This document shows, in pieces, positions 3,180-55,422 of a stretch of DNA of 64,000 nucleotides. The notes beneath the pieces are model-generated. The model saw only the letters and a program-made list of their open reading frames with translations. It made no database searches and was not told where the DNA came from. Position 1 is the first letter of the stretch. Each line of letters opens with the position of its first letter. Origin of the DNA: Streptomyces fodineus (GTDB lineage: Bacteria > Actinomycetota > Actinomycetes > Streptomycetales > Streptomycetaceae); contig NZ_CP017248.1 of assembly GCF_001735805.1 (NCBI RefSeq), positions 4,216,001-4,280,000 on the forward strand, written 5' to 3'. The translations under genes were made by a program, and so were the position numbers.

Positions 3180-3824
3180 TCACCGAGGCGGCGGCCCCCA
3201 CTGTGGTGGCGGGGCCAGCGCGGTGGCCAGCCGGTGGCGGTGGCGGGTGCGTCGGACGGCGGTGACGATGACGATGCTCACGGTTGCGGCGACCGCGGCG
3301 AGGAAGCAGCCGATCGCCGCGGCGATGCCGCCGATCGTGGCCCCCACCTGGGGTTTGTCTCCCAGCGCGAACTCCGCCGGGCGCTCCGAGGTGCAGGTGA
3401 GCGTGTAGTCGCCGCTGCTTACGGGCTTCACCTCGAAGACGCGGTCCCAGCTGCGGGACCCGAGGGTGATGCGGAAGCTGCTGGTCGGCTGGGTGATCGA
3501 ACCCGGTGGCAGCGCCGGGATCCGGCAGTCGACCTGACCCTGCCCGGACTGGGAGACGTAGATCGCCTTGGTCTTCCCCTGGACGAAGGCGAACGTCCGC
3601 GAGTCGCCGCTGGAGAAGCTGCGGGCGGTGTCGATCGAGTCCACCGTGTTCTGCACCGTGACCACGATGACGGCGATGCCCACACCGGCCAGTACGAGCC
3701 CCAGCAGCGCGGCCACCAGGTACCAGACGCGCCGAGGCCGCAGGTCCTTCGCCGGGATGCTCGCCGGCGGAGGCGGCGGGCCGCCGTACGGTGGTCCCCA
3801 CGGATATGGATTCTGTATCGCCAC
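3180..3824 (-). CDS. Two-TM membrane protein with Pro-rich N-terminus
   Basis: The 214-residue protein of unknown function starts with a proline/glycine-rich cytoplasmic tail (about residues 5-22). A transmembrane helix follows near residues 34-57 ([20 protein letters not shown]). An extracytoplasmic domain of about 100 residues with two cysteines comes next, then a second transmembrane helix (about 165-190) and a short basic tail. It lies downstream of tuf on the same strand, separated by a strong terminator, and converges on the ATPase gene. No family is recognised with confidence. Confidence 0.75.
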
Positions 3825-3863
3825 GAGGGCGCATCGTACGGCAACCGCCGGGGAGTACGACGA

Positions 3864-3897
3864 AGAGGCCCGTACGACCGAAGTCGTACGGGCCTCT
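3864..3897 (-). terminator. Intrinsic terminator of tuf
   Basis: A perfect 15-bp stem (3864-3878 with 3883-3897, built around GGCCCGTACGAC) encloses a 4-base loop. It is about 50 bases downstream of the tuf stop codon and ends the str operon. Confidence 0.85.
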
Positions 3898-3945
3898 CCT
3901 CAGGTCAGAGACCTTCAGGTCAGGCGACCCTCAAGCAAGCGGAAC

Positions 3946-5139
<1,194 letters not shown>

Positions 5140-5217
5140 TGGGGTCCTCCTGTGGAGTGGTTCTGTACGCCTTACTTCATCGGCGCCAGGTGATCTTTGC
5201 TGGGAAGCCCGGAACCC

Positions 5218-5250
5218 GGGGCATTCATCCGGGATTGCGGCTGAATGCCC
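5218..5250 (-). promoter_or_regulatory. Inverted repeat in the fusA-tuf intergenic region
   Basis: GGGCATTCA (5218-5226) and TGAATGCCC (5242-5250) form a 9-bp stem with a 15-base loop. It lies in the 155-bp spacer where tuf is expected to have extra transcription control. It could be an mRNA processing or pausing hairpin. There is also a TTGACT hexamer at 5265-5270 on the minus strand, but no convincing -10 partner. Confidence 0.4.
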
Positions 5251-5294
5251 CTTGAGGCTCCGGAGTCAAGCCTAAAGCGTGTGAACGCGGTGCG

Positions 5295-7421
5295 TTACTC
5301 GCCCTTGGCCTTCGCGATGATCTCCTCGGCGACGTTCCGCGGAACCTCGGCGTAGGAGTCGAACTGCATCGAGTAGCTTGCGCGACCCGACGTCTTGCTG
5401 CGGAGGTCGCCGACGTAGCCGAACATCTCCGACAGGGGCACGAGGCCCTTCACGACGCGGGCACCAGCCCGCTCCTCCATGGCCTGGATCTGGCCACGGC
5501 GGGAGTTGATGTCGCCGATGACCTCGCCCATGTAGTCCTCGGGCGTGGTGACCTCGACGGCCATCATCGGCTCGAGCAGCACGGGGCTGGCCTTGCGCGC
5601 GGCCTCCTTGAAGGCCTGCGAACCGGCGATCTTGAAGGCGAGCTCGGAGGAGTCGACCTCGTGGTAGGCGCCGTCGTGGAGGATGACGCGCACGCCGGTC
5701 ATCTCGTAACCGGCGAGGATGCCGAACTGCATGGCCTCCTGCGCACCGGCGTCGACCGAAGGGATGTACTCCTTCGGGATACGACCACCGGTCACCTTGT
5801 TCACGAACTCGTACGAGGTGTCGCCACCCTCGAGCGGCTCGATGCCGATCTGCACCTTCGCGAACTGACCGGTACCACCGGTCTGCTTCTTGTGGGTGTA
5901 GTCGACGCGCTCGACGGCCTTGCGGATCGTCTCGCGGTACGCCACCTGCGGCTTGCCGACGTTGGCCTCGACCTTGAACTCACGGCGCATACGGTCGACC
6001 AGCACCTCGAGGTGCAGCTCGCCCATACCACCGATGATGGTCTGGCCGGTCTCCTCGTCCGAGTGGACCTGGAAGGACGGGTCCTCCTCGGCCAGGCGCT
6101 GGATCGCGACGCCGAGCTTCTCCTGGTCGCCCTTCGACTTGGGCTCGATGGCGACCTGGATGACCGGCGCCGGGAAGTCCATGGACTCCAGGATGACCGG
6201 GTTCTTGTCGTCGGACAGCGTCTCACCGGTGGTGGTCTGCTTCAGGCCCATGACGGCGACGATGTCGCCGGCGCCCACCGACTCGATCTCCTCACGCTTG
6301 TTGGCGTGCATGCGGTAGATCTTGCCGATGCGCTCCTTCTTGCCCTTGACGGAGTTCAGCACGGCGGTGCCGGACTCCAGGCGGCCGGAGTACACGCGGA
6401 CGAAGGTGAGCTTGCCGAGGTGCGGGTCGCTCATGATCTTGAACGCCAGCGCGGACAGCGGCTCGTCGTCGGACGGCTTGCGCTTGACGACCTCCTCCGG
6501 GTTGTTGACCGCGTGGCCCTCGATGGCCTCGATGTCAACCGGGGAAGGCAGGTAGCGCACGACCGCGTCGAGCAGGGGCTGAACACCCTTGTTCTTGAAC
6601 GCGGTGCCGCAGAACACCGGGGTCACCGTGGTGCCGGTGCCCTTGCCGGAGGCGATGGTGATACGACGGATCGCCGCGTAGAGCTGCTCCTCGGTGGGCT
6701 CCTCGCCCTCCAGGTACAGCTCCATCAGCTGCTCGTCGTTCTCGGCGACGGCCTCGAGGAGCTTGCCGCGCCATTCCTCGGCCGCCTCGGTGTGCGTGGC
6801 CGGGATGTCGACGACGTCGTACATCTCGCCCTTGGTGGCCTCGGCGGACCACACGAGCGCCTTCATGCGGACCAGGTCCACGACGCCCTTGAAGTCGGCC
6901 TCGGCACCGATCGGGAGCTGCATGACGATCGGCTGAGCGCCCAGGCGGTCGGTGATCATGTCGACGCAGCGGTGGAACTCGGCACCCGTCCGGTCGAGCT
7001 TGTTGACGAAGCAGATACGCGGAACGCCGTAGCGGTCCGCCTGACGCCACACCGTCTCGGACTGGGGCTCAACGCCGGCGACGCCGTCGAACACCGTCAC
7101 GGCACCGTCGAGCACGCGCAGGGAGCGCTCCACCTCGACGGTGAAGTCGACGTGGCCCGGGGTGTCGATGATGTTGATGGTGTGATCGACGTTCTCCAGC
7201 GGCCAGTGACAGGTGGTGGCAGCAGAGGTGATCGTGATGCCACGCTCCTGCTCCTGCTCCATCCAGTCCATGGTGGCAGCGCCGTCGTGGACCTCACCGA
7301 TCTTGTAAGACACACCGGTGTAGAACAGGATCCGCTCGGTGGTGGTCGTCTTGCCCGCGTCGATGTGGGCCATGATGCCGATGTTGCGCACCTTGGCCAG
7401 GTCAAGTGAAGTGGTAGCCAT
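5295..7421 (-). CDS. fusA: Translation elongation factor EF-G
   Basis: EF-G is the translocation GTPase. The 708-residue product is of normal length with P-loop [23 protein letters not shown] and NKLDR in the G domain. Domains II-V follow, including [14 protein letters not shown] and the C-terminal [12 protein letters not shown]. It sits 39 bases after rpsG and before tuf in the classical str operon order. Nothing anomalous is seen. Confidence 0.98.
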
Positions 7422-7460
7422 AAGGCTTCAGTCTTCTCTCGGTCTCGATGTGGGTAGCGA

Positions 7461-7931
7461 CTACCAGCGGTAGTGCGCGAAGGCCTTGTTGGACTCGGCC
7501 ATCTTGTGGGTGTCCTCGCGCTTCTTCACGGCCGCACCGAGGCCGTTGGAGGCGTCGAGAAGCTCGTTGAGGAGACGCTCGGTCATGGTCTTCTCGCGAC
7601 GGGCGCGGGAGTAACCGACCAGCCAGCGCAGCGCCAGGGTGTTGGCACGGCCGGGCTTGACCTCGACCGGGACCTGGTAGGTGGCGCCACCGACACGGCG
7701 GGACTTGACCTCGAGGGTCGGCTTGATGTTCTCAAGAGCGCGCTTGAGCGTGATGACCGGGTCGTTGCCGGTCTTCTCGCGCAGGCCCTCCATGGCGCCG
7801 TAGACGATGCGCTCGGCGGTGGAGCGCTTGCCGTTCAGCAGCACCTTGTTGATGAGCGACGTGACCAGAGGAGAACCGTAGACCGGGTCGATGATGACCG
7901 GGCGCTTCGGGGCGGGGCCCTTACGAGGCAT
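7461..7931 (-). CDS. rpsG: 30S ribosomal protein S7
   Basis: S7 nucleates assembly of the small-subunit head. The product is 156 residues, starts [20 protein letters not shown] and ends in the standard [12 protein letters not shown]. It starts only two bases after rpsL, so the two are probably translationally coupled. Confidence 0.98.
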
Positions 7932-7933
7932 TC

Positions 7934-8305
7934 TTACTTCTCCTTCTTGGCGCCGTAGCGGGAACGGGCCTGCTTGCGGTTCTTGACACCCTGGGTGTCG
8001 AGGGAGCCACGGATGATCTTGTAGCGAACACCCGGCAGGTCCTTCACACGGCCGCCGCGCACGAGCACGATGGAGTGCTCCTGCAGGTTGTGTCCCTCAC
8101 CCGGAATGTAAGCGGTGACCTCGATGCCGCTGGTCAGACGCACACGCGCGACCTTACGCAGGGCCGAGTTCGGCTTCTTCGGGGTGGTCGTGAACACACG
8201 CGTGCAGACGCCACGACGCTGAGGGGAACCCTCGAGTGCGGGCGTCTTGTTCTTCTCGACCTTGTCCTGCCGGCCCTTACGGACCAGCTGCTGGATCGTA
8301 GGCAC
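7934..8305 (-). CDS. rpsL: 30S ribosomal protein S12
   Basis: S12 is the decoding-site protein, 123 residues, first gene of the str operon. The GTG start at 8305 is chosen because the protein then begins [13 protein letters not shown], the family start, with GGAGAAG just upstream; the open frame extends further without protein-like sequence. Lys43 (in [13 protein letters not shown]) and Lys88 (in [12 protein letters not shown]) are the wild-type residues. The classic streptomycin-resistance substitutions are therefore absent. Confidence 0.98.
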
Positions 8306-8500
8306 TACTTCTCCGGTTTCTGTGTGCCGATGGGTACAGCTAACCTGGAACATCGCCGACCCACGCGGTCGGGTGTGTCGAATCCGGGCGGACTCCCGCC
8401 GCAAGGCGAAAACAGCACAGATTACGGTGGCCGCTCGCGGCTCGCCATGCGGTCTGAAGGCACGCACACGAGCCAGGGCACACCCCAGGCACAAGGTCTG

Positions 8501-8529
8501 AGCGTACCTACCTCATTCGCTGTGGTCAA
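8501..8529 (-). promoter_or_regulatory. Promoter of the str operon
   Basis: On the minus strand TTGACC (8524-8529) and TACGCT (8501-8506) are separated by exactly 17 bp. This is an excellent match to the vegetative sigma consensus, placed about 200 bp upstream of rpsL. The leader (8306 to about 8494) holds no gene. Confidence 0.75.
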
Positions 8530-8586
8530 AACAAATGGGCCCCGGCGGCCTCGGCTCGCGAGTGATGTCAAGCCCCGGTACGCTAC

Positions 8587-8829
8587 GTGATCTTCGAATC
8601 GACGATCCGGGCCGCTGAGCATGCGCTCGCCCGGCTGGAGAAAGAGACTCGGCCGGCTCGCCTGGCGGCTGTTGCGGCGGCTCGATCGGCGCACGCGTGG
8701 CACGGCCATCGCACGGCCCTCGGCAGCCCGCCCGGCAGGCAATCCCTGCTCGCACGCCTGCCGGACTCCCACGCGGCCGTCAGCACCTGCCTCCACCGCC
8801 TCCGGGCCCGGCCGGCGTACGGGCCCTGA
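8587..8829 (+). CDS. Doubtful small ORF between rpsL and rpoC
   Basis: An 80-codon frame starts at a GTG on the strand opposite its neighbours. It has strongly GC-biased third codon positions, an Ala/Arg-rich helical start (ESTIRAAEHALARLEKETR) and no recognisable domain. No ribosome-binding site is obvious. It ends just before a hairpin that could terminate both this gene and rpoC. It may be a real hypothetical protein or a chance frame. Confidence 0.35.
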   Translation: MIFESTIRAAEHALARLEKETRPARLAAVAAARSAHAWHGHRTALGSPPGRQSLLARLPDSHAAVSTCLHRLRARPAYGP

Positions 8830-8836
8830 CACGCCG

Positions 8837-8871
8837 AAGGGCGGCCACCCCGAAACGGAGTGGCCGCCCTT
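8837..8871. terminator. Terminator downstream of rpoC, possibly bidirectional
   Basis: AAGGGCGGCCAC (8837-8848) and GTGGCCGCCCTT (8860-8871) form a perfect 12-bp stem with an 11-base loop. It is 13 bases beyond the rpoC stop. Confidence 0.85.
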
Positions 8872-8883
8872 CATGCTGCTCGC

Positions 8884-12783
<3,900 letters not shown>

Positions 12784-27480: not shown

Positions 27481-28145
27481 GGGCCCAAGACTACGAGACA
27501 CCACCGACAGCACCGCATCCGCGCGGGGCGACGGTCATGGAGCGGGGGGTGGGGGTGGGGCCGTGCCGGGCCGAGCCGGGGCAGGGACCCCGCCGGGCCG
27601 AGCCGGGGCAGGGACCCCGCCGGGCCGAGCCGGGGCAGGGACCCCGCCGGGCCGAGCCGGGGCAGGGACCCCGCCGGGCCGAGCCGGGGCAGGGACCAGC
27701 GGTCGACGGAGCGACCTTGCGGCCTGTGCGACCTGCTATCGCGGCCAGGCCGTGGGGCAACCGGAGCGGCCGCTTGCGGGGCGGTGCCTCGCGCCCGCCG
27801 CGCCGACCGCGACCAGCCGACCCCGGGCGCCCACCGGCGCGAACCGACACGCACGTACGCGCACGTGGGCTCTGAACTGATTCGCGTGGGCACGCGTGTA
27901 CGCGCGCGTGGTCTCCTCTCGAAGGCCACGCGCGCGTAGGCGACGTACTCCCGGCCGGCGGTCTGCGTAAGCCGCGTCTCCGCTCCCTCCCCGCTCGGCG
28001 GCAGTCGGTCGTCGGAGGTCTGCCAGGTGGCGAACTTGACGGCGCGCATCTGCGAGGCCGGCCCGCGCGAGGTGGGCCGGTGGGCACCGGGGTGGGCGAA
28101 GGACTTCAGCGCGTCGGCGGACTGCCAGGCGGGAAGCGCGGACAT
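27444..28145 (-). CDS. Small hypothetical gene, possibly decayed, reading through the 27-bp repeats
   Basis: An ATG at 28145 has a strong ribosome-binding site (AAGGAG, seven bases away) and begins MSALPAWQSADALKSFAHPG. This resembles the C-terminal part of small monooxygenase-type proteins (DUF3291-like), but the match is weak. After about 75 residues the frame turns Arg/Pro-rich, crosses the five 27-bp repeats and overlaps the murB start. I infer a truncated gene with a random extension. It lies 45 bases after the MFS stop on the same strand and may be co-transcribed. Confidence 0.4.
   Translation of the reverse strand: MSALPAWQSADALKSFAHPGAHRPTSRGPASQMRAVKFATWQTSDDRLPPSGEGAETRLTQTAGREYVAYARVAFERRPRARTRVPTRISSEPTCAYVRVGSRRWAPGVGWSRSARRARGTAPQAAAPVAPRPGRDSRSHRPQGRSVDRWSLPRLGPAGSLPRLGPAGSLPRLGPAGSLPRLGPAGSLPRLGPARPHPHPPLHDRRPARMRCCRWCLVVLGPCRYSTTPLLPR
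27563..27697. repeat. Five tandem copies of a 27-bp GC-rich unit
   Basis: The unit begins CCGCCGGGCCGAGCC and ends GGGGCAGGGACC. It occurs at 27563-27589 (first two bases variant), 27590-27616, 27617-27643, 27644-27670 and 27671-27697, essentially without mismatch. Because 27 is a multiple of three, it keeps several frames open and would encode a nine-residue repeat. The perfect identity suggests recent slippage-type expansion. Confidence 0.95.
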
Positions 28146-39612: not shown

Positions 39613-39656
39613 ACGGGAGCCCCGTGATCTGCTCTCGCAGATCACGGGGCTCCCGT
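39613..39656. terminator. Terminator at the left border, original tRNA-Tyr terminator
   Basis: A 20-bp perfect stem (39613-39632 with 39637-39656, around GAGCCCCGTGATCTGC) encloses a TCTC loop. Before integration it would have lain just after tRNA-Tyr on the minus strand; it also ends the AhpD gene. A diverged copy is at 55292-55328. Confidence 0.85.
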
Positions 39657-39715
39657 TCCCGTGTGGCGGCGCCAGGATTCGAACCTGGGAAGGCTGAGCC
39701 GGCAGATTTACAGTC
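39655..39715. other. attL, 61-bp direct repeat with tRNA-Tyr 3' remnant
   Basis: These 61 bases are identical to 55332-55392. On the minus strand 39664-39715 hold the 3' part of tRNA-Tyr from the anticodon (GTA) through the variable arm, T-arm and acceptor strand. The 5' half is absent, so this copy is a non-functional tRNA fragment left by site-specific integration. Confidence 0.95.
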
Positions 39716-39863
39716 CCCTCAAGATCGCACCTCGAAAGCTGCTCTGACCTGCCGGTTTAGCCGGAGTCACCCCCGGATAGCGGTGTGTCGTCCACGTCTC
39801 GTCCTGATCATGAAAAATCCGTCCACGAATCGACCGGAGGAAGCGTGACCCATGGCCGCTACG

Positions 39864-39877
39864 CTGGTACGCACCAC
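39864..39877. promoter_or_regulatory. Operator-like palindrome before the GntR-Nudix gene
   Basis: CTGGTACGCACCAC matches the perfect palindrome CTGGTGCGCACCAG (42009 and 42033) at 12 of 14 positions. It lies 25 bp upstream of the ATG at 39902. This suggests autoregulation by the GntR domain. Confidence 0.55.
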
Positions 39878-39901
39878 GGCAGAACGGAGAGTGCTCCGGG
39901 G

Positions 39902-40690
39902 ATGGGACCGAAGACGACCAAGGTCTACGAGACGCTTCGCAAACGACTCGCCGACGGCGCGTATACCCCAGGCGAGAAGTTCCCCTCTGAACGCACACTG
40001 ACTGAGGAACTGGACATCGGGCGGACCGCGCTCCGGCAGGTGCTTGCCCGCCTTGTGACGGAGGGCGCGCTAGAAGTCCGGGGTCGGAGTTCGTACCGGG
40101 TACCGGGTGCGGTCAGCGTGAAGGCTCCGGACAGCTTGGAGCCGTGGCGCATCCACGGTGAGCGCGATCTTTACGACAACCAGTGGGTGAAGCTTCAACT
40201 CTGGGACGTGGAGCCGCCCGGTGTAGAGCGGTTTGAGCATCACGTCGTGAAGCTTCAGCATGTGGCCGTCACAGCCGTGGTTGATGCCCGGGACCGGGTG
40301 CTCATGATGTGGCGGTACCGATTCGTGCCGAAGCGTTTCGGATGGGAGCTCCCGGGCGGCATCGTGGACGAGGGCGAGGCACCGGAGGAAACGGCGCTGC
40401 GGGAAGTCGTCGAAGAGACAGGTTGGCGCCCGAAGAACATCGAGCACGTTGTCACCTATCAGCCCATGGTCGGCATGGTCGACTCGCCGCACGAGATCTT
40501 CGTAGCCCATGGAGCTGACAAGGTCGGAGAGCCGACCGACCTGGAAGAGGCCGGGCATATCGAGTGGGTTCCGCTCGCCGACATCCCAGGACTCATGGCC
40601 CGGGGGGAGCTACTGGGGTCCGGCACGCTGGTCGCGCTGCTTCACATCCTGGCGACCAGGGGCAAGCAGACGGTTACAGCCGCTCACTGA
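39902..40690 (+). CDS. GntR-Nudix fusion: repressor joined to a Pif-like immunity factor
   Basis: The 262-residue product has an N-terminal GntR winged helix (about residues 1-67: PGEKFPSERTLTEELDIGRT). It is fused to a Nudix hydrolase domain with a perfect Nudix box at about residues 152-174 (GIVDEGEAPEETALREVVEE, then TGW). In pSAM2 the GntR repressor KorSA and the Nudix protein Pif, which blocks redundant transfer, are separate proteins. Here both functions appear in one chain. A GTG at 39845 with GGAGG upstream is an alternative start. The 3' end overlaps the convergent XRE gene by 17 bp. Confidence 0.85.
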   Translation: MGPKTTKVYETLRKRLADGAYTPGEKFPSERTLTEELDIGRTALRQVLARLVTEGALEVRGRSSYRVPGAVSVKAPDSLEPWRIHGERDLYDNQWVKLQLWDVEPPGVERFEHHVVKLQHVAVTAVVDARDRVLMMWRYRFVPKRFGWELPGGIVDEGEAPEETALREVVEETGWRPKNIEHVVTYQPMVGMVDSPHEIFVAHGADKVGEPTDLEEAGHIEWVPLADIPGLMARGELLGSGTLVALLHILATRGKQTVTAAH

Positions 40691-46874: not shown

Positions 46875-48983
46875 ATGGCCACCACCGCCACGAAGCAGCA
46901 GCCCAGTGGCCCGGTGCTGGACTGGGCGGCCGGTCACGGACCCGTGACCGGCGCCCTGTCCGCCACCACCGGAGCCTTCGCCGTCGCCACCACCGGCGCC
47001 GCAACCTCCATGCCGCCCAGCTGGGCCTTCACCGTCGGCGCCGCCGGCGCCCTCGGCCACACCGTCGCCGGTATCCGGGTGCGCTACGCCGGCCGCACCC
47101 TGGCCACCCGCGCCGCCTCCTGGCTCGTCGGCGCAGGCTGGACCACCTGGGCCATGACCCACGGCCCGCTCACCTGGGCCGCCCTGGGATCCCTGGCCAC
47201 CATCGGCGTCGGGATCGGCGCCGCCGCCCGCTCCGTCGCCCTCTTCGAGGAGGCCCGTGAGGAAGAGGCGATCGCCGCCGAGCAGCGAGCCATCGCGCGG
47301 GAGTTGTCCGCGGAGCGGCGGGCGATTGCTGAGGAGTGGGTGGAGCGCATTCGGCGGATCTGCTCCATCAGCGTGCGTGTCCTCGCGGTGGAGATGTGGC
47401 CCACCGGTACCGGCTACTCCCTGGACCTGGAGCCGCAGGGCGGCATCACCTATGACCGCATCGCCCAGTACTCGGTGCAGCTGTCCGCGGATGCCCGGCT
47501 GCCGCACGGCTGCACCGCCACCGCCTCCCAGGGCGTCCATCAGGGCCGGGTCATCCTGGACGTGACCACGGTCAACGTCCTGCAGACGGAGTGCGCCTAT
47601 CCCGACGACTACGGGCCCCTGTCGCTGCTGACCGGGATCCCGTGGGGGGTGCGCCCCAACGGCGAGATCGTCTGCGCCTACCTGCGCGAGCAGTGCGCCC
47701 TCGTCGTCGGCCCGACCGGTTCGGGCAAGACGAACATGGTGCACACGATCCTGGGCGGGTTCGCCCGCGCCGAGGACATGCTCACCTGGGTCATCGACCT
47801 CAACGCCGGATCCGCCGGCCTGCCCTGGGTCCTGCCCGCGCTCAACGGGGAGATCGAGCGGGCCGACGGCCTGCCCGTCCGGCCCGGCATCGACTGGCTG
47901 GCCGGCTCGTATGAGGAAGCCATGCTGATGCTCGATGCCGCACTCGCCATCGGCTTGCACCGCAAGCGGGCCTACCAGGACCTGCTGGCCAAGGCGAACA
48001 CGGACCTGCTCCCGGTCAGCGCCCAGATTCCTCAGATCATGCTCGTGATCGATGAGGGCGCGGAGATCCTGACCAGCACCGACCGGGAGATGAAGCAGCT
48101 CGCGAAGAAGATCCTGGAAGTCATCCGCATGCTGCGCGCCATGGGCATCCGCACCGTGCTCACCGCCCTCGGCGCGACCGGCAGCGTGCTGGGCAACCTC
48201 ATGATCCGCCGGGAAGCCAAGGTCCGCGTCGCGCTAACCGGCGGCGAGACCGAGGGCATGGACCTGGGCAAGATGTTCCCCGGCCGCCGCGGCCTGCGCG
48301 TCGAGCAAGCCCCGTACAAGGGTGCGGGGTTCATGGGCACGCCGGAGTCCCCGGCCGCGCTGTTCAAGGCCTGGCGGATCCTGCCCAACCAGATCCGCCA
48401 GATCACCGCCGCCACCTCCGACCGGCACCCGTGCCTGGACGGCATCTCCGCCAAGGCCGCAGGGCCCGCCTACGCCCGCCGCTGGGACGCCGACCGCACC
48501 GCGTGGATGCGCGACCTCACCCCCGACGACCCCGCAGGCACCGACACCGAGCCGTCGGTATCCGTTGGGGGCGGGCTGAACCTGGCGGCGCTGCGCGGCC
48601 GGGAGGCGGAGCAGACCTCGCCGGAGGATGAGATGCTGCGCCGGTTCCGGGAGCAGATCGACGCCCAGTTCGCCACCGCCCCGGACCCGCACACGCCCGT
48701 GGAGCAGGCTCCGCCGGCCGCAGGGCAGGGGCTGAACCTGTCCGCGCTGCGCGGCGAGCAGGACAGCCCCGCCCAACAGGCGGCGCTCGCCGTGCTGCTC
48801 GCCGCCGGCACGGAGGGCACGGGCGCCTCCGCGATCGCCCGCGCGCTCGCCGACGAGTACGGCACCAACCGTCAGACGGTCGTCGGCTGGCTCAAGGCCT
48901 GGGTGCACGACGGCACCGCCGTCCGCGTCGGAGAGGGCACCAAGGCCCGCTACGTCCACCACCGGCACGCCCCCGAAAGCTGA
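46875..48983 (+). CDS. TraB/FtsK-type conjugative DNA translocase
   Basis: The 702-residue protein is predicted to move double-stranded element DNA between hyphae as a hexameric pump. It has N-terminal membrane segments (about residues 20-125) and a coiled region (EEAIAAEQRAIARELSAERR). The FtsK/SpoIIIE motor has Walker A GPTGSGKTN (about 279-287) and Walker B LVIDEGAE (about 390). A C-terminal winged helix of about 60 residues resembles FtsK gamma and the TraB DNA-recognition domain. It starts three bases after the upstream stop; the array at 49068 lies 85 bp downstream. Confidence 0.92.
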   Translation: MATTATKQQPSGPVLDWAAGHGPVTGALSATTGAFAVATTGAATSMPPSWAFTVGAAGALGHTVAGIRVRYAGRTLATRAASWLVGAGWTTWAMTHGPLTWAALGSLATIGVGIGAAARSVALFEEAREEEAIAAEQRAIARELSAERRAIAEEWVERIRRICSISVRVLAVEMWPTGTGYSLDLEPQGGITYDRIAQYSVQLSADARLPHGCTATASQGVHQGRVILDVTTVNVLQTECAYPDDYGPLSLLTGIPWGVRPNGEIVCAYLREQCALVVGPTGSGKTNMVHTILGGFARAEDMLTWVIDLNAGSAGLPWVLPALNGEIERADGLPVRPGIDWLAGSYEEAMLMLDAALAIGLHRKRAYQDLLAKANTDLLPVSAQIPQIMLVIDEGAEILTSTDREMKQLAKKILEVIRMLRAMGIRTVLTALGATGSVLGNLMIRREAKVRVALTGGETEGMDLGKMFPGRRGLRVEQAPYKGAGFMGTPESPAALFKAWRILPNQIRQITAATSDRHPCLDGISAKAAGPAYARRWDADRTAWMRDLTPDDPAGTDTEPSVSVGGGLNLAALRGREAEQTSPEDEMLRRFREQIDAQFATAPDPHTPVEQAPPAAGQGLNLSALRGEQDSPAQQAALAVLLAAGTEGTGASAIARALADEYGTNRQTVVGWLKAWVHDGTAVRVGEGTKARYVHHRHAPES

Positions 48984-48985
48984 TC

Positions 48986-48994
48986 GCTTGTCGC
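48986..48994. repeat. Inverted copy of the GCGACAAGC motif
   Basis: GCTTGTCGC here is the exact reverse complement of GCGACAAGC at 49066-49074. It lies just after the traB stop and could pair with the array as single-stranded DNA or act as an oppositely oriented binding site. Confidence 0.6.
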
Positions 48995-49067
48995 CTGTCG
49001 TCCCGCGGAGACAGAAGCCGTCCAGGGTGGGTCTGGAGACCCGGAAACGTCTTGTGACCTGGGACGC

Positions 49068-49139
49068 GACAAGCGACAAGACAAGACAAGCGACAAGCCG
49101 CACGACAAGCCAGACGACAAGCAACGCGACAAGCCACAT
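49068..49139. repeat. Six-unit 12-bp GACAAG array, candidate clt/TRS
   Basis: GACAAG begins at 49068, 49080, 49092, 49104, 49116 and 49128, exactly every 12 bp, followed by six more variable bases. Two extra copies (49075, 49085) lie out of phase. The array follows traB directly, where Streptomyces plasmids keep clt, the site whose short direct repeats are read by the TraB winged helix. Function is inferred from position and repeat form. Confidence 0.75.
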
Positions 49140-49204
49140 CACGGGCCGCACCCCAACCCCGGGGCGTGGCCCGCCGCGTTGAAACGACCACCGGGAGGCC
49201 GCTC

Positions 49205-49396
49205 GTGATCGTGACCCTGTCCGCCGTCGCACTCCTCGGGGTGCTGGCCTTCGTCCTGCTGCGCGGCCGTTACGTCGGCCCGTTCAGCGCCCTCGTGCTG
49301 TTCCTGTTCGGCTTCTTCACCGCCGGCACCGGCGCCGCCACAACCATCCGCGCCGTATGCCGCGCACTCGCCGAAGCCGCCCACCAGCTCACCTGA
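49205..49396 (+). CDS. Small membrane protein
   Basis: The 63-residue protein has two hydrophobic helices (VTLSAVALLGVLAFVLLRGR; ALVLFLFGFFTAGTGAATTI). The GTG at 49205 is preferred over an ATG at 49166 because CGGGAGG lies six bases upstream and the extra residues are not hydrophobic. It is probably a spread/transfer accessory. Confidence 0.78.
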   Translation: MIVTLSAVALLGVLAFVLLRGRYVGPFSALVLFLFGFFTAGTGAATTIRAVCRALAEAAHQLT

Positions 49397-50745: not shown

Positions 50746-50835
50746 AGACGCCCGGGGCGACCGCCCGATCTCGCCAAAGACACGCGGTCGCCCCGGCCCA
50801 ACCAGTCCACAACAGACCTGTTGGAGGCATCCAGC

Positions 50836-51759
50836 ATGACTCATCGCACCGACGCGCGGCGAGCAGACCTACTCGCCGCCGCTCTGGCCGCCGCCGGGCG
50901 CGGCTGGCACGTCCACCCGCTCCGCCCCGGCGGCAAGGCCCCCGCGCTGCACGGCGAGCACGCGTGCCCGCGTAGCGGCCCGTGCGCCGGCGGCCATGTG
51001 AAGTGGGAGCAGCGCGCCACCACCGACCCCGACCGCATCCGCGCCGCCTGGACGACGGGCCCCTACAACGTCGGTATCGCCACCGGGCCGTCCGGCCTGA
51101 TCGTCATCGACCTGGACGTGCACAAGGACGAGAAGGACAAGGGCAGTTCGGACGCGCCTTGCGGCGCGACATCCTTTTCGGCGCTCTGCGAGCGCGCCGG
51201 ACAGCCATGGCCGACGACCTACACGGTGCGGACGCCCAGCGGCGGCATGCACCTGTACTTCTCGGTGCGGCCCGGCATCGAGCTGCACAACAGCGCCCGC
51301 ACCCTCGCCCCGTACGTCGACACCCGCGCATGGGGCGGCAACGTCGTAGCGGCGGGCAGCATCACCCCCCAGGGCGTCTATGAGGCCGTCAACCGGTACC
51401 CGGTGGCGGAACTGCCCGCGTGGCTGATGCGAGAGCTTCAGCGGCCCGCGCCCACACCGGTGGCCATGGCACCGCTCGTCGTCCCCGGGGCGGCCACCCG
51501 CCGGGCCACGGTCGCCCTGGACCGCGAGACCGCTGCCGTCCGGGGCACCGGGGAGGGCGGCCGGAACAACCGGCTGCTGGAGGGCGCCCGCGCCCTGGGG
51601 CGGTTCGTCGCATGGGGCGAGATCGCCCGGGACGTGGTGGAGGAGGCTTTTCAGGCGGCCGGTGAGGCGGCCGGACTGGCCCCGGGCGAGTGCCGGGCCA
51701 CCATCCGCAGCGCCCTGGACTGGTCGATTCGCACCTGCCGGCCCCGGGACGCCGCATGA
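50836..51759 (+). CDS. Bifunctional primase/polymerase (Prim-Pol) replication protein
   Basis: The 307-residue product has an archaeo-eukaryotic-type primase fold. The metal motif is IVIDLDVHK (about residues 95-103), followed by TPSGGMHLYFSV and GGNVVAAGS. A C-terminal helical region reads NNRLLEGARALGRFV. RepPP-type AICEs use such proteins with an ATPase as the replication initiator instead of a rolling-circle Rep. GGAGG lies eight bases upstream of the ATG. It is coupled to the next gene. Confidence 0.9.
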   Translation: MTHRTDARRADLLAAALAAAGRGWHVHPLRPGGKAPALHGEHACPRSGPCAGGHVKWEQRATTDPDRIRAAWTTGPYNVGIATGPSGLIVIDLDVHKDEKDKGSSDAPCGATSFSALCERAGQPWPTTYTVRTPSGGMHLYFSVRPGIELHNSARTLAPYVDTRAWGGNVVAAGSITPQGVYEAVNRYPVAELPAWLMRELQRPAPTPVAMAPLVVPGAATRRATVALDRETAAVRGTGEGGRNNRLLEGARALGRFVAWGEIARDVVEEAFQAAGEAAGLAPGECRATIRSALDWSIRTCRPRDAA

Positions 51760-52172
51760 CCCCCCGCCCTGAAAAGCCCACCCCACCCACGTCCGAGCGC
51801 TCGCGCCCGGCTGGTCGTGGCGCCGACGGAGGCCGTGGCACGAAGAGCGACGGCCGACAGGCCGTCCTTTCAGCTCTTCGTTCTGACCCGCACCCGACCG
51901 GTCACGCCCGCCACGACGCCGACGACCTGACGTCGGAGAAGCCGGGGATCCGCATCTACGCCCCGCCCGTCTACCGCCACCACTACGACGGCGCCCGCTG
52001 GTCTAAGCGCTACGGCGCCACCCCCACCGCCGCCTACGCCTGCCCCTGCGGCCAGACCAATACCGCCCGCGGACAGCACGCCGTGGCCGCCTTGGTCGCC
52101 GAGTACGAGGACCACAAGGCCGCCTGCACCGGTACGCCCGCCCCGCACGCCGAAAGGAGGAACGCCGCATGA
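51756..52172 (+). CDS. Hypothetical protein between Prim-Pol and DUF3631 ATPase
   Basis: The 138-residue product has a Pro/Arg/Ser-rich first half. A compact C-terminal part follows with CPCGQTNTARGQHAVAALV and a later Cys, possibly a zinc-binding domain. It overlaps both neighbours by 4 bp (ATGA), so all three are translated as a unit. Likely a replication accessory. Confidence 0.75.
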   Translation: MTPRPEKPTPPTSERSRPAGRGADGGRGTKSDGRQAVLSALRSDPHPTGHARHDADDLTSEKPGIRIYAPPVYRHHYDGARWSKRYGATPTAAYACPCGQTNTARGQHAVAALVAEYEDHKAACTGTPAPHAERRNAA

Positions 52173-53425
52173 CCAGCACCAACCCGCCCGCCCCGTCCAT
52201 CGACGGCGCCGCCCTGCTCGATGAGGTCGAAGCGTTCCACCGTCGCTTCAACATCTTCCCCACCGAGTCCGCGTACGTGGCCGTAACGCTGTGGGACGCG
52301 CACGCGCACCTGATCGACGCGTTCGACGGCACCGCCCGGCTCGCGTTTCTGAGCCCGGAGCCGGGGTCAGGCAAGTCCCGCGCACTGGAGATCGTGGAGA
52401 CGCTCACCCCGCGTGCAGTCACCACGGTCAACGCGTCCGCCAACGCCCTGTTCCGGCTGGTGGAGGCCGACGGGGGAACCCCGACACTGCTTTTCGACGA
52501 GATCGACACCGTGTTCGGGCCCAAAGCCGGGGGCAACGAAGAGGTCCGCGGCTTCCTGAACTCCGGCTACCGGCGCGGCGCCAAGTCCCTGCGCTGCGTC
52601 GGGGACGGCTCGAACCAGTCCACCGAGTGGTTCTCCTCGTTCTGCGCCGTCGCCATGGCCGGACTCGGCTCCCTGCCGGACACGATCCTGACCCGCTCGG
52701 TCATCATCCGGATGCGCAAGAAGGCCCCCAACGAGAAGGCCGAACCGTACCGCCGACGCGTCCACGAAAAGCAGGGTCACGCCCTGCGTGACCGGCTCGC
52801 CGAGTGGGCCACCACCGTGCACGACCAGGTAGCCGAAGCCTGGCCCGAGATGCCCGATGGCGTCTCCGACCGGCCCGCCGACGTGTGGGAACCCCTGCTC
52901 GCCGTCGCCGACGCGGCCGGCGGCCACTGGCGCGATCGAGCCCGCGCCGCCTGCGTCGAACTCATCAAGGCAGCGGGCGAGGGCAACGAAGCCTCACTCG
53001 GGGTCCGCCTGTTGACCGACCTGCGCGACAAGGTGTTCTGCGGCGCCGACCGCATGCCCACCGCAGCCATCCTCGAAGTCCTCCTCGGACTCGATGACGC
53101 CCCCTGGGCCGACATGAACGACGACGGCAAACCCCTCACGGCCCGCGGCCTGTCCAAGCTGCTGAGCCAGTACGTCCGCCCCGACAACACTCCCATCCGG
53201 CCCCGGGGCATCCGTGTCGGCAGCGGCACCCCGAAGGGCTACTACGCCGAGGACCTGACCGACGCTTGGGCCCGCTACTGCCCCCCTCCCCCCGAGAAGT
53301 CCGCAACGTCCGCAACAGCCGCAACACCGCAGGTCAACGGGGGTGAATTCGTGGCGGAACACCCCGACGAAAGCCGCCACATGCTCGCGGAAACCGGCAC
53401 ACGCCCGCTGCGCATCGCAGGCTGA
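52169..53425 (+). CDS. DUF3631 ATPase/helicase-like protein
   Basis: The 418-residue P-loop ATPase has Walker A PEPGSGKSRALE (about residue 68) and Walker B LLFDEIDTVFG. The DUF3631 domain lies in the C-terminal half (GLDDAPWADMNDDGKPL; RPRGIRVGSGTPKGYY). Together with Prim-Pol it probably provides the helicase/primase pair for element replication. The last 40 codons contain three copies of a CCGCAAC heptamer that continues in the intergenic region. Confidence 0.88.
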   Translation: MTSTNPPAPSIDGAALLDEVEAFHRRFNIFPTESAYVAVTLWDAHAHLIDAFDGTARLAFLSPEPGSGKSRALEIVETLTPRAVTTVNASANALFRLVEADGGTPTLLFDEIDTVFGPKAGGNEEVRGFLNSGYRRGAKSLRCVGDGSNQSTEWFSSFCAVAMAGLGSLPDTILTRSVIIRMRKKAPNEKAEPYRRRVHEKQGHALRDRLAEWATTVHDQVAEAWPEMPDGVSDRPADVWEPLLAVADAAGGHWRDRARAACVELIKAAGEGNEASLGVRLLTDLRDKVFCGADRMPTAAILEVLLGLDDAPWADMNDDGKPLTARGLSKLLSQYVRPDNTPIRPRGIRVGSGTPKGYYAEDLTDAWARYCPPPPEKSATSATAATPQVNGGEFVAEHPDESRHMLAETGTRPLRIAG

Positions 53426-53550
53426 CCGGCCCAACGTCCCGAGGTGTCGCCGCGTCACCGCGCGGCGGCACCTATCCGCAACACAACCGGCATCCGCAAC
53501 AGATCCAAGCCGCTGACCTGCAATGTTGCGGCGTGGCGGATGTTGCGGAT
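53301..53550. repeat. CCGCAAC repeat cluster, candidate origin or Xis/Int region
   Basis: CCGCAAC occurs at 53301, 53310 and 53319 (9-bp spacing, inside the ATPase gene) and at 53476 and 53494. It is inverted at 53525 and 53542. The last four lie in extended ATCCGCAACA/TGTTGCGGAT arms in the 191-bp gap before xis. Such iterons could be the binding site of the replication protein or of Xis. Confidence 0.7.
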
Positions 53551-53616
53551 TTCCGGGAGGGGCTGAGCGACCCCTCCCTTCGTTTGTCCCTCCTGCTGTC
53601 CCAAGGAGATCCCTGC

Positions 53617-53826
53617 ATGAGCACCCCGGCCCGTAAGCGCCGCACGCCGAAGGACGAACTGGTGCCCCTGAGTGAGGCACTGGAAGAACTCCGTATCAGC
53701 CGCGCCACCTGGTACCGGTGGCGCAACCACGGCTACGCGCCGGAGGCCCGACGCACGCCGTCCGGCCGCATCTGCGTACGCCGAAGTGTCCTGGACGCCT
53801 TCAAGGACGAATTGGAAGCCGCGTGA
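53617..53826 (+). CDS. xis: Excisionase-like HTH protein
   Basis: The 69-residue MerR-like/Xis winged helix reads PLSEALEELRISRATWYRW, then a wing RRTPSGRICVRRS. AAGGAG precedes the ATG and the stop overlaps the integrase start (GTGA). In pSAM2- and SLP1-like elements the protein encoded just before integrase directs excision. Confidence 0.9.
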   Translation: MSTPARKRRTPKDELVPLSEALEELRISRATWYRWRNHGYAPEARRTPSGRICVRRSVLDAFKDELEAA

Positions 53827-55187
53827 CCGAGTGGAGCTACACCGTCAAGATCTGGGCCATCCGCAAGCGCGACTACCGGAAGCCCTATCAACTCCGCTGG
53901 AAGGTGGGCATCCGCCCGCATTCGGAGTCGTTCCTCACCCTGGGCCTGGCGGAGAGTCGCCGGGCCCAGCTCATCACCGCAACCCGTGAGGGCGAGCCGT
54001 TCGACGTGGACAGCGGGTTGCCGAAGTCCATGGTCGTGAAGGAGCGGGACATCTCGTGGTACGACCACGCCCGCAACTACATCGCCATGAAGTGGGACCA
54101 CTCCCCCGCCTCCACACGCCGCACGCTCGCCGAAGCAATGGCGACCGTGACGCCCGTCTTCGTGAAGGACACCAAGGGCATGCCCGACGCCAGAGCCGTG
54201 CGACGGGCCCTATATAGCTGGGCGTTCAACAAGAACCTCTGGAACGAGGAGACCCCCGCCGATGTCGCCAAGGTGCTGGAGTGGTTCAAGCGCAAGTCGC
54301 TGCCCACGTCGGCCCTGTCGGATCTCCTGCTGGCGCGGGCCGCTCTCAACGCCGTGTCCCTGAAGCTGGACGGGACAACCGCAGCGGCAGGAACCATCAG
54401 CCGAAAGCGCGCGATCTTCTACAACTCGCTGGAGTACGCCGTAGAGGCCGAACTCCTCGCCGACAACCCGCTCATCCGCATCAAGTGGAAGGCGCCGGAG
54501 CAGGTCGTAGAGGAAGTCGACCCCGAGTGCCTGCCGAACCCCGAACAGGCGGCCAAGCTGCTGGCCGCCGTGCGGGACCAGAGCCCGCGGGGCCGTCGGC
54601 TGGTGGCGTTCTTCGGCTGCATCTACTACGCGGCTGCGCGGCCGGCAGAAGTCATCGGTCTGCGGCGCCGTGATTGCGAGCTGCCCCGGCGCGGGTGGGG
54701 GCTGCTCCGACTGAGGGAAACTCGCCCACGCTCCGGCGCCGCCTGGACGGACAGCGGTGAGGCGCACGACAAGCGTGGGCTGAAGCACCGGCCCCGGCGA
54801 GCCGTCCGTCACGTACCGATCCCGCCCGAACTGGTCGCCCTGCTGCGGTGGCACCTCACCGCGTACGGCACCGCCCCGGACGGCCGCGTGTTCCAGACCA
54901 TGCGAGGCGGGTTGGTCCAGGACACGGGCTACGGGGAGGTCTGGGCCGAAGCCCGCTCGCGGGCTCTGACTCCTGGCGAGTTCGAATCGATCTTGGCCAA
55001 GCGCCCGTATGACCTTCGCCACGCTGCGGTGTCCACCTGGCTCAGCTCCGGCGTGGAGCCTCAGCTCGTGGCGGAGCGCGCCGGCCACAGCGTGGCGGTG
55101 CTCTTCCGGGTGTACGCCAAGTTCCTCAAGGACGGAGACGAGGCGGCCAACGCCAAGATCTCCGCCCGCTTGAGGCAGGCCGGGTGA
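53823..55187 (+). CDS. int: Tyrosine-recombinase integrase
   Basis: The 454-residue site-specific recombinase has an N-terminal AP2-like arm-binding part, a core-binding domain and a catalytic domain. The catalytic domain shows YYAAARPAEVIGLRRRD (first Arg), PYDLRHAAVSTWL (second Arg box, with Tyr where many have His), AERAGHS and the nucleophile in FRVYAKFL. The GTG at 53823 overlaps the xis stop. It lies 145 bp from attR, the usual AICE layout. Confidence 0.93.
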   Translation: MTEWSYTVKIWAIRKRDYRKPYQLRWKVGIRPHSESFLTLGLAESRRAQLITATREGEPFDVDSGLPKSMVVKERDISWYDHARNYIAMKWDHSPASTRRTLAEAMATVTPVFVKDTKGMPDARAVRRALYSWAFNKNLWNEETPADVAKVLEWFKRKSLPTSALSDLLLARAALNAVSLKLDGTTAAAGTISRKRAIFYNSLEYAVEAELLADNPLIRIKWKAPEQVVEEVDPECLPNPEQAAKLLAAVRDQSPRGRRLVAFFGCIYYAAARPAEVIGLRRRDCELPRRGWGLLRLRETRPRSGAAWTDSGEAHDKRGLKHRPRRAVRHVPIPPELVALLRWHLTAYGTAPDGRVFQTMRGGLVQDTGYGEVWAEARSRALTPGEFESILAKRPYDLRHAAVSTWLSSGVEPQLVAERAGHSVAVLFRVYAKFLKDGDEAANAKISARLRQAG

Positions 55188-55291: not shown

Positions 55292-55328
55292 GGCCCCGTG
55301 ACCTGCTGTTCTCGCAGGTCACGGGGCC
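55292..55328 (-). terminator. Element-borne terminator copy behind tRNA-Tyr
   Basis: GGCCCCGTGACCTGC (55292-55306) pairs with GCAGGTCACGGGGCC (55314-55328). It is a diverged relative of the hairpin at 39613-39656 but lies inside the AICE. The element thus supplies the restored tRNA-Tyr with a replacement terminator. Confidence 0.85.
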
Positions 55329-55331
55329 TCT

Positions 55332-55392
55332 GTTCCCGTGTGGCGGCGCCAGGATTCGAACCTGGGAAGGCTGAGCCGGCAGATTTACAGTC
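55332..55392. other. attR, 61-bp direct repeat within tRNA-Tyr
   Basis: This copy is identical over 61 bp to 39655-39715. It covers the tRNA-Tyr sequence from the anticodon region to the 3' end plus 9 bases beyond. Crossover lies somewhere within it. Confidence 0.95.
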
Positions 55393-55422
55393 TGCTCCCT
55401 TTGGCCGCTCGGGCACACCGCC
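55341..55422 (-). tRNA. tRNA-Tyr (GTA), intact copy at the AICE border
   Basis: The 82-nt class II tRNA has acceptor GGCGGTG/CGCCGCC, anticodon loop CTGTAAA with GTA, a long variable arm and T-arm GGTTCGAATCC. Its 3' part is provided by the AICE after integration, so function is preserved. Confidence 0.96.

Follow-up and report, generated by a model that had tools for sequence, protein, structure and literature searches.

A probable transfer address next to traB in a Streptomyces AICE, exchanged among relatives together with the TraB reading head

What is the function of a short word repeated on a regular grid directly behind the gene for a DNA-transfer protein? We addressed this question for a locus in the genome of Streptomyces fodineus (NZ_CP017248.1), within a stretch of 64,000 nucleotides (the window; positions below refer to this stretch). 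The original prediction, made from the sequence alone, was that an array of GACAAG following traB is a clt (cis-acting transfer locus) recognized by the C-terminal winged helix of TraB. The analysis described here supports this interpretation and suggests that the array is very probably the site that TraB reads to move the element from cell to cell.

The array and its genomic setting

The array was confirmed. Eight copies of GACAAG are present in the 223 bp after the traB stop, of which six, starting at 49068, 49080, 49092, 49104, 49116, and 49128, lie on an exact 12-bp grid, with extra copies at 49075 and 49085. CTTGTC is found at 48987, inside the exact inverted GCTTGTCGC at 48986-48994, as originally reported. 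In 5000 dinucleotide shuffles of 48984-49210, no 6-mer reached eight copies (maximum 5) and no periodic run passed 3. The array occurs once in the 9.7-Mb genome, where the only other GACAAG triple is a GACAAGGACAGG repeat elsewhere. Several details had been missed: the copies are CGACAAG (direct array, 49067-49134, plus strand); the off-grid copies follow a 5/7-bp rule (0, 7, 12, 17, 24); and a degenerate second inverted copy, CCTGTCG, lies at 48995, where family members have a clean one (CTTGTCGCTTGTCG). The inverted copies (48986-49000, minus strand) are mostly 0.8-1.0 conserved per column in 123 relatives. A TGACCTG box (49055-49061, plus strand) stands just before the direct array; it is 0.97-1.00 conserved in the class of relatives that shares the GACAAG word (class A, see below). 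The array is followed by a G+C-rich hairpin (49142-49173, plus strand; predicted -27.1 kcal/mol) and a small open reading frame of 63 aa in an spd-like position (49205-49396, plus strand).

The locus belongs to an AICE of about 15.8 kb inserted in tRNA-Tyr. The element is bounded by an 83-bp direct repeat (95% identical) at 39633-39715 (attL) and 55310-55392 (attR), the latter overlapping the tRNA-Tyr gene (55340-55422, minus strand). Besides traB, it encodes, on the plus strand, a Prim-Pol replication protein (50821-51759; Pfam, 7.5e-45), a DUF3631 protein that is likely replication associated (52169-53425; Pfam, 9.1e-60), an excisionase-like HTH_17 protein (53533-53826; Pfam, 1.1e-6), and a tyrosine integrase (53718-55187), for which the matches to Pfam Phage_integrase (5e-4) and to XerC/XerD models (1.6e-5 and 1.4e-4) were below the cut-offs. 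A fused GntR-NUDIX protein, with both domains identified by Pfam, is encoded at the left end of the AICE (39785-40690). A perfect 27-bp tandem repeat of 4.9 copies (27565-27697) lies outside the element.

TraB (46875-48983, plus strand; 702 aa) is an FtsK-type DNA translocase. Searches against Pfam and NCBIfam gave only weak ATPase hits, and the FtsK_SpoIIIE model of Pfam did not score; the family was placed instead by a Foldseek search (top hit, FtsK motor, E = 1.8e-14), profile hits on PDB chains of FtsK and TcpA, and PHROGs (FtsK/SpoIIIE-like, 5.8e-86). The protein is related to TraB of pIJ101 (8e-6 in a single BLASTP comparison; 9e-10 with hhalign); PLSDB contains TraB relatives only below 60% identity and no DNA match to the site. 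AlphaFold2 modeling of the C-terminal domain (aa 632-702; 48768-48983, plus strand), the proposed reading head, predicted a winged helix with an H-H-H-E-E arrangement and pLDDT mostly above 87, in which the recognition helix corresponds to aa 666-679 (RQTVVGWLKAWVHD; 48870-48911, plus strand). The best structural matches of this model are DNA-binding winged helices in general, with no Foldseek match below 1e-3; these matches do not single out FtsK gamma, although the fold is too common for this to be decisive.

Covariation of the repeat with the C-terminal domain of TraB

We next examined whether homologous elements carry a repeat at this place. TraB homologs were drawn from two searches of about 390 genomes each, and 104 loci were compared. 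An array was detected behind the traB stop in 103 of these; in four, it is displaced by 160-310 bp by an insert, and the exception, L199, is a broken fragment. The array is not peculiar to this element: more than 100 relatives have it. In three loci (L129, L162, and L169), the stretch inserted between traB and the array is similar and possibly contains a small minus-strand gene. Unrelated or diverged C-terminal domains go with different repeat words: RQTVxGWL with GACAAG (76 of 77, the fragment counted), RRPVIQ with TGACAG (5 of 5), GMKPxAVADLV...ERGEL with CYACTRG (19 of 19), and a fourth head with TGTGGGA (3 of 3); the classes are denoted A, A', B, and C. Within class B, sub-heads go with single bases of the repeat: RSRQ with GCCASTA, KDRKTV with CCCASTA, and SREAVRK with GGCAGTA. 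In a further set of 80 named loci, the class was called from the helix by rule; 39 of the 42 non-duplicate loci agreed in the first 235 bp behind traB, two have displaced arrays, one has a degenerate array, and none shows the word of another class. The two sets come from overlapping species pools and are not fully independent.

The geometry of the site is conserved as well. In class A, 476 of 495 intervals between copies are 12 bp (194), 5 bp (142), or 7 bp (140), whereas the spacer letters vary; the first direct copy lies about 84 bp behind the stop, and the inverted copies mostly about 3 and 10 bp. Class B keeps a 7-bp grid. Fixed spacing with free spacers is what repeated docking of protein subunits on DNA would leave. 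The TGACCTG box is nearly invariant in classes A, A', and C but absent from class B, and remains unexplained.

The reading head and the array are exchanged as one block with little else. On a tree of the TraB motor with the head left out, class A changes at least 10 times on well-supported branches, and all classes together change 18 times by parsimony, although this was a fast tree with a warning on some long branches. Elements with 90-97% identical motors can differ in just one block of ~480 bp that comprises the head and the array. In pairs such as L142/L150, L188/L151, and L176/L137, with 92-95% identical motors, the DNA mostly agrees at 75-98% up to about -250 bp from the stop (less in the linker), falls to background over the head and the array, and agrees again from about +240 bp. 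Over 39 cross-class pairs with ~90% identical motors, the identity falls to 0.42-0.57 from -240 to +240 around the stop and recovers on both sides, whereas 39 same-class pairs matched for motor identity stay at 0.70-0.92 from -240 to +180. The pairs share members and therefore do not represent 39 independent events. In the window, the hairpin lies near the edge of the exchanged block.

A likely clt and alternative interpretations

The array with its inverted copies and the TGACCTG box most likely is the clt of this AICE, and we hold this view with high confidence, although the evidence that the winged helix specifies the repeat is indirect. Under this scenario, TraB would read CGACAAG with its C-terminal winged helix, copies on a fixed 12-bp grid would let several subunits of a ring dock side by side, and a hexamer would form on the DNA of the element and push the double-stranded circle into the recipient. 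Binding, ring loading, and transfer are inferred from pSVH1 and pWTY27 (PMC3583192). A step of 12 bp would turn the helix by about 51 degrees, near the 60 degrees between subunits of a hexamer. Plasmid pWTY27 provides a proven precedent at the same place: its 175-bp clt at the end of traA, which encodes an FtsK-like protein, contains four TGACACC repeats and was demonstrated by transfer, gel shift, and footprint (PMC3583192). This clt combines short direct repeats (TGACACC/CCCGCCC, bound by TraA) and inverted repeats in the ~160 bp right behind the tra gene, but with another repeat word and in a plasmid rather than an AICE. In pSVH1, an FtsK-type TraB reads 8-bp repeats through helix alpha3 of its C-terminal winged helix; the repeat words and spacing there, as in the clt of pIJ101 and pJV1, are different (Vogelmann 2011 and Franco 2003, as cited in PMC3583192 and PMC9513070). 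The probable pSVH1 word, GACCCGGA, occurs once in the window, at 49038, probably by chance. pSAM2-type AICEs share the integrase, excisionase, replication gene, TraB, and tRNA insertion, but no clt motif has been described for pSAM2 (PMC9513070).

Other explanations appear very unlikely. Iterons are short direct repeats, and the element has its own Prim-Pol and DUF3631 genes, so that the array could be an iteron or replication origin bound by the Rep protein. However, the array lies behind traB rather than beside rep, and the repeat follows the TraB head and not the replication or integrase genes: the class B element L148 has DUF3631, integrase, and excisionase 88%, 80%, and 78% identical to those of the window, respectively, whereas many class A elements lack recognizable Prim-Pol/DUF3631 in the stretch analyzed. 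An operator of the tra/spd operon could be considered given that the site stands before the spd-like genes and that GntR and XRE regulators lie in the element, but this would need a regulator changing in step with the TraB head, and sites with the same layout also stand with no TraB-like gene within reach. A role at the RNA level (riboswitch, attenuator, or terminator), which the strong hairpin might suggest, is the least likely: nothing in Rfam reached its threshold, the one weak match, guanidine-III, having 17.5 bits against 36 needed, and the site has arms in both orientations and a word that follows a DNA-binding domain.

Because the head and the array lie within about 400 bp, one recombination event moves both, and linkage could explain part of the covariation. 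It is nevertheless improbable that adjacency alone accounts for the pattern and that the array has no function tied to TraB. The exchanged block ends at the array in several pairs; the repeat is the most conserved non-coding part and keeps its spacing while spacers vary; and it is kept when a stretch is inserted between traB and the array as well as in loci with no traB-like gene within reach.

Sites without traB and possible passengers

A search of 393 genomes with an exact core word found the site beside traB in most places but also in 13 loci with no TraB-like frame in the stretch examined, mostly 9 kb on either side, with two loci (L298 and L301) cut by contig ends. Nearly all of these show two arms of opposite orientation, and most have the box with array and spacer, as beside traB. 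The A' word was found at three sites, all beside traB, so that there was no A' orphan with that exact word. In IMG/VR, L295, a contig filed as viral, carries a class A traB and its array and is probably an AICE taken for a virus, whereas L296 and L297 hold a short match without the layout. Eight of the 13 host genomes hold a related Rep of about 545 aa in the same neighborhood (in one, G178, on a second contig that also has the array), some with excisionase and integrase called beside it; weak homologs of this Rep stand next to AICE traBs, which suggests a common origin. Only three of the 13 genomes (G015, G023, and G269) also hold a class A TraB according to one of the two homolog searches.

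A relative found through the same Rep family, L317, is an 8.45-kb element (3222-11674) bounded by 90-bp repeats (98%) that holds two class B sites of different sub-class (B2 type and B1 type) and no TraB-like frame. End repeats were also found for L310 (36 bp) but not for L302, L309, L304, L299, and L311, where only part of the locus was compared. L311 holds seven TGACACC in about 150 bp (4900-5060), the DC1 word of the proven pWTY27 clt, and L309 has an array of the same word (9200-9350) beside its GACAAG site. L310 holds GACAAG and GGACGCT arrays; GGACGCT (AGCGTCC) and TGACGCA arrays near CTGACCTGC boxes in L310 (9140-9330), L312, L313, and L316 are candidate clts of TraB classes not yet identified, or replication origins. 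CTGACCTGC occurs 62 times in 268 kb of the orphan-site loci against a mean of 3.7 for anagrams, a 17-fold over-representation, and about a third of its copies head a repeat module.

The simplest reading is that these loci are passengers that use foreign TraBs; decayed AICEs that lost traB are the alternative. Those with Rep and Int resemble integrative mobilizable elements (IMEs) that pirate type IV systems with oriT and relaxase (PMC5704250), but there is no relaxase or oriT, the helper would be a single double-stranded DNA pump, and the stolen feature would be a clt; membership in this group is not shown. It is possible, with the evidence roughly balanced, that Streptomyces carries a class of integrative satellites that have dropped, or never had, a DNA pump and keep only clt addresses, some of them two or more of different specificity, so that whichever TraB enters the cell can move them. 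Together with the swappable cassette of head and clt, this would be an address-and-reader arms race in double-stranded DNA conjugation.

A clt bound by a Tra pump is known for plasmids; in a literature search that covered few subscription journals, we found no report of clts in AICEs, of the cassette exchange, or of orphan sites, and the original statement that the hexamer and the period are undescribed holds for the papers searched. A recent study asks whether each AICE uses its own TraB or can use that of another element (PMC9513070). Here, a likely clt can be read off the sequence for a whole AICE family and its class predicted from the TraB reading head, so that cross-mobilization becomes a direct, testable prediction. 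Natural pairs with nearly the same motor and a different head plus site are ready-made domain swaps, and the orphan sites may point to an unrecognized layer of passengers in Streptomyces gene flow.
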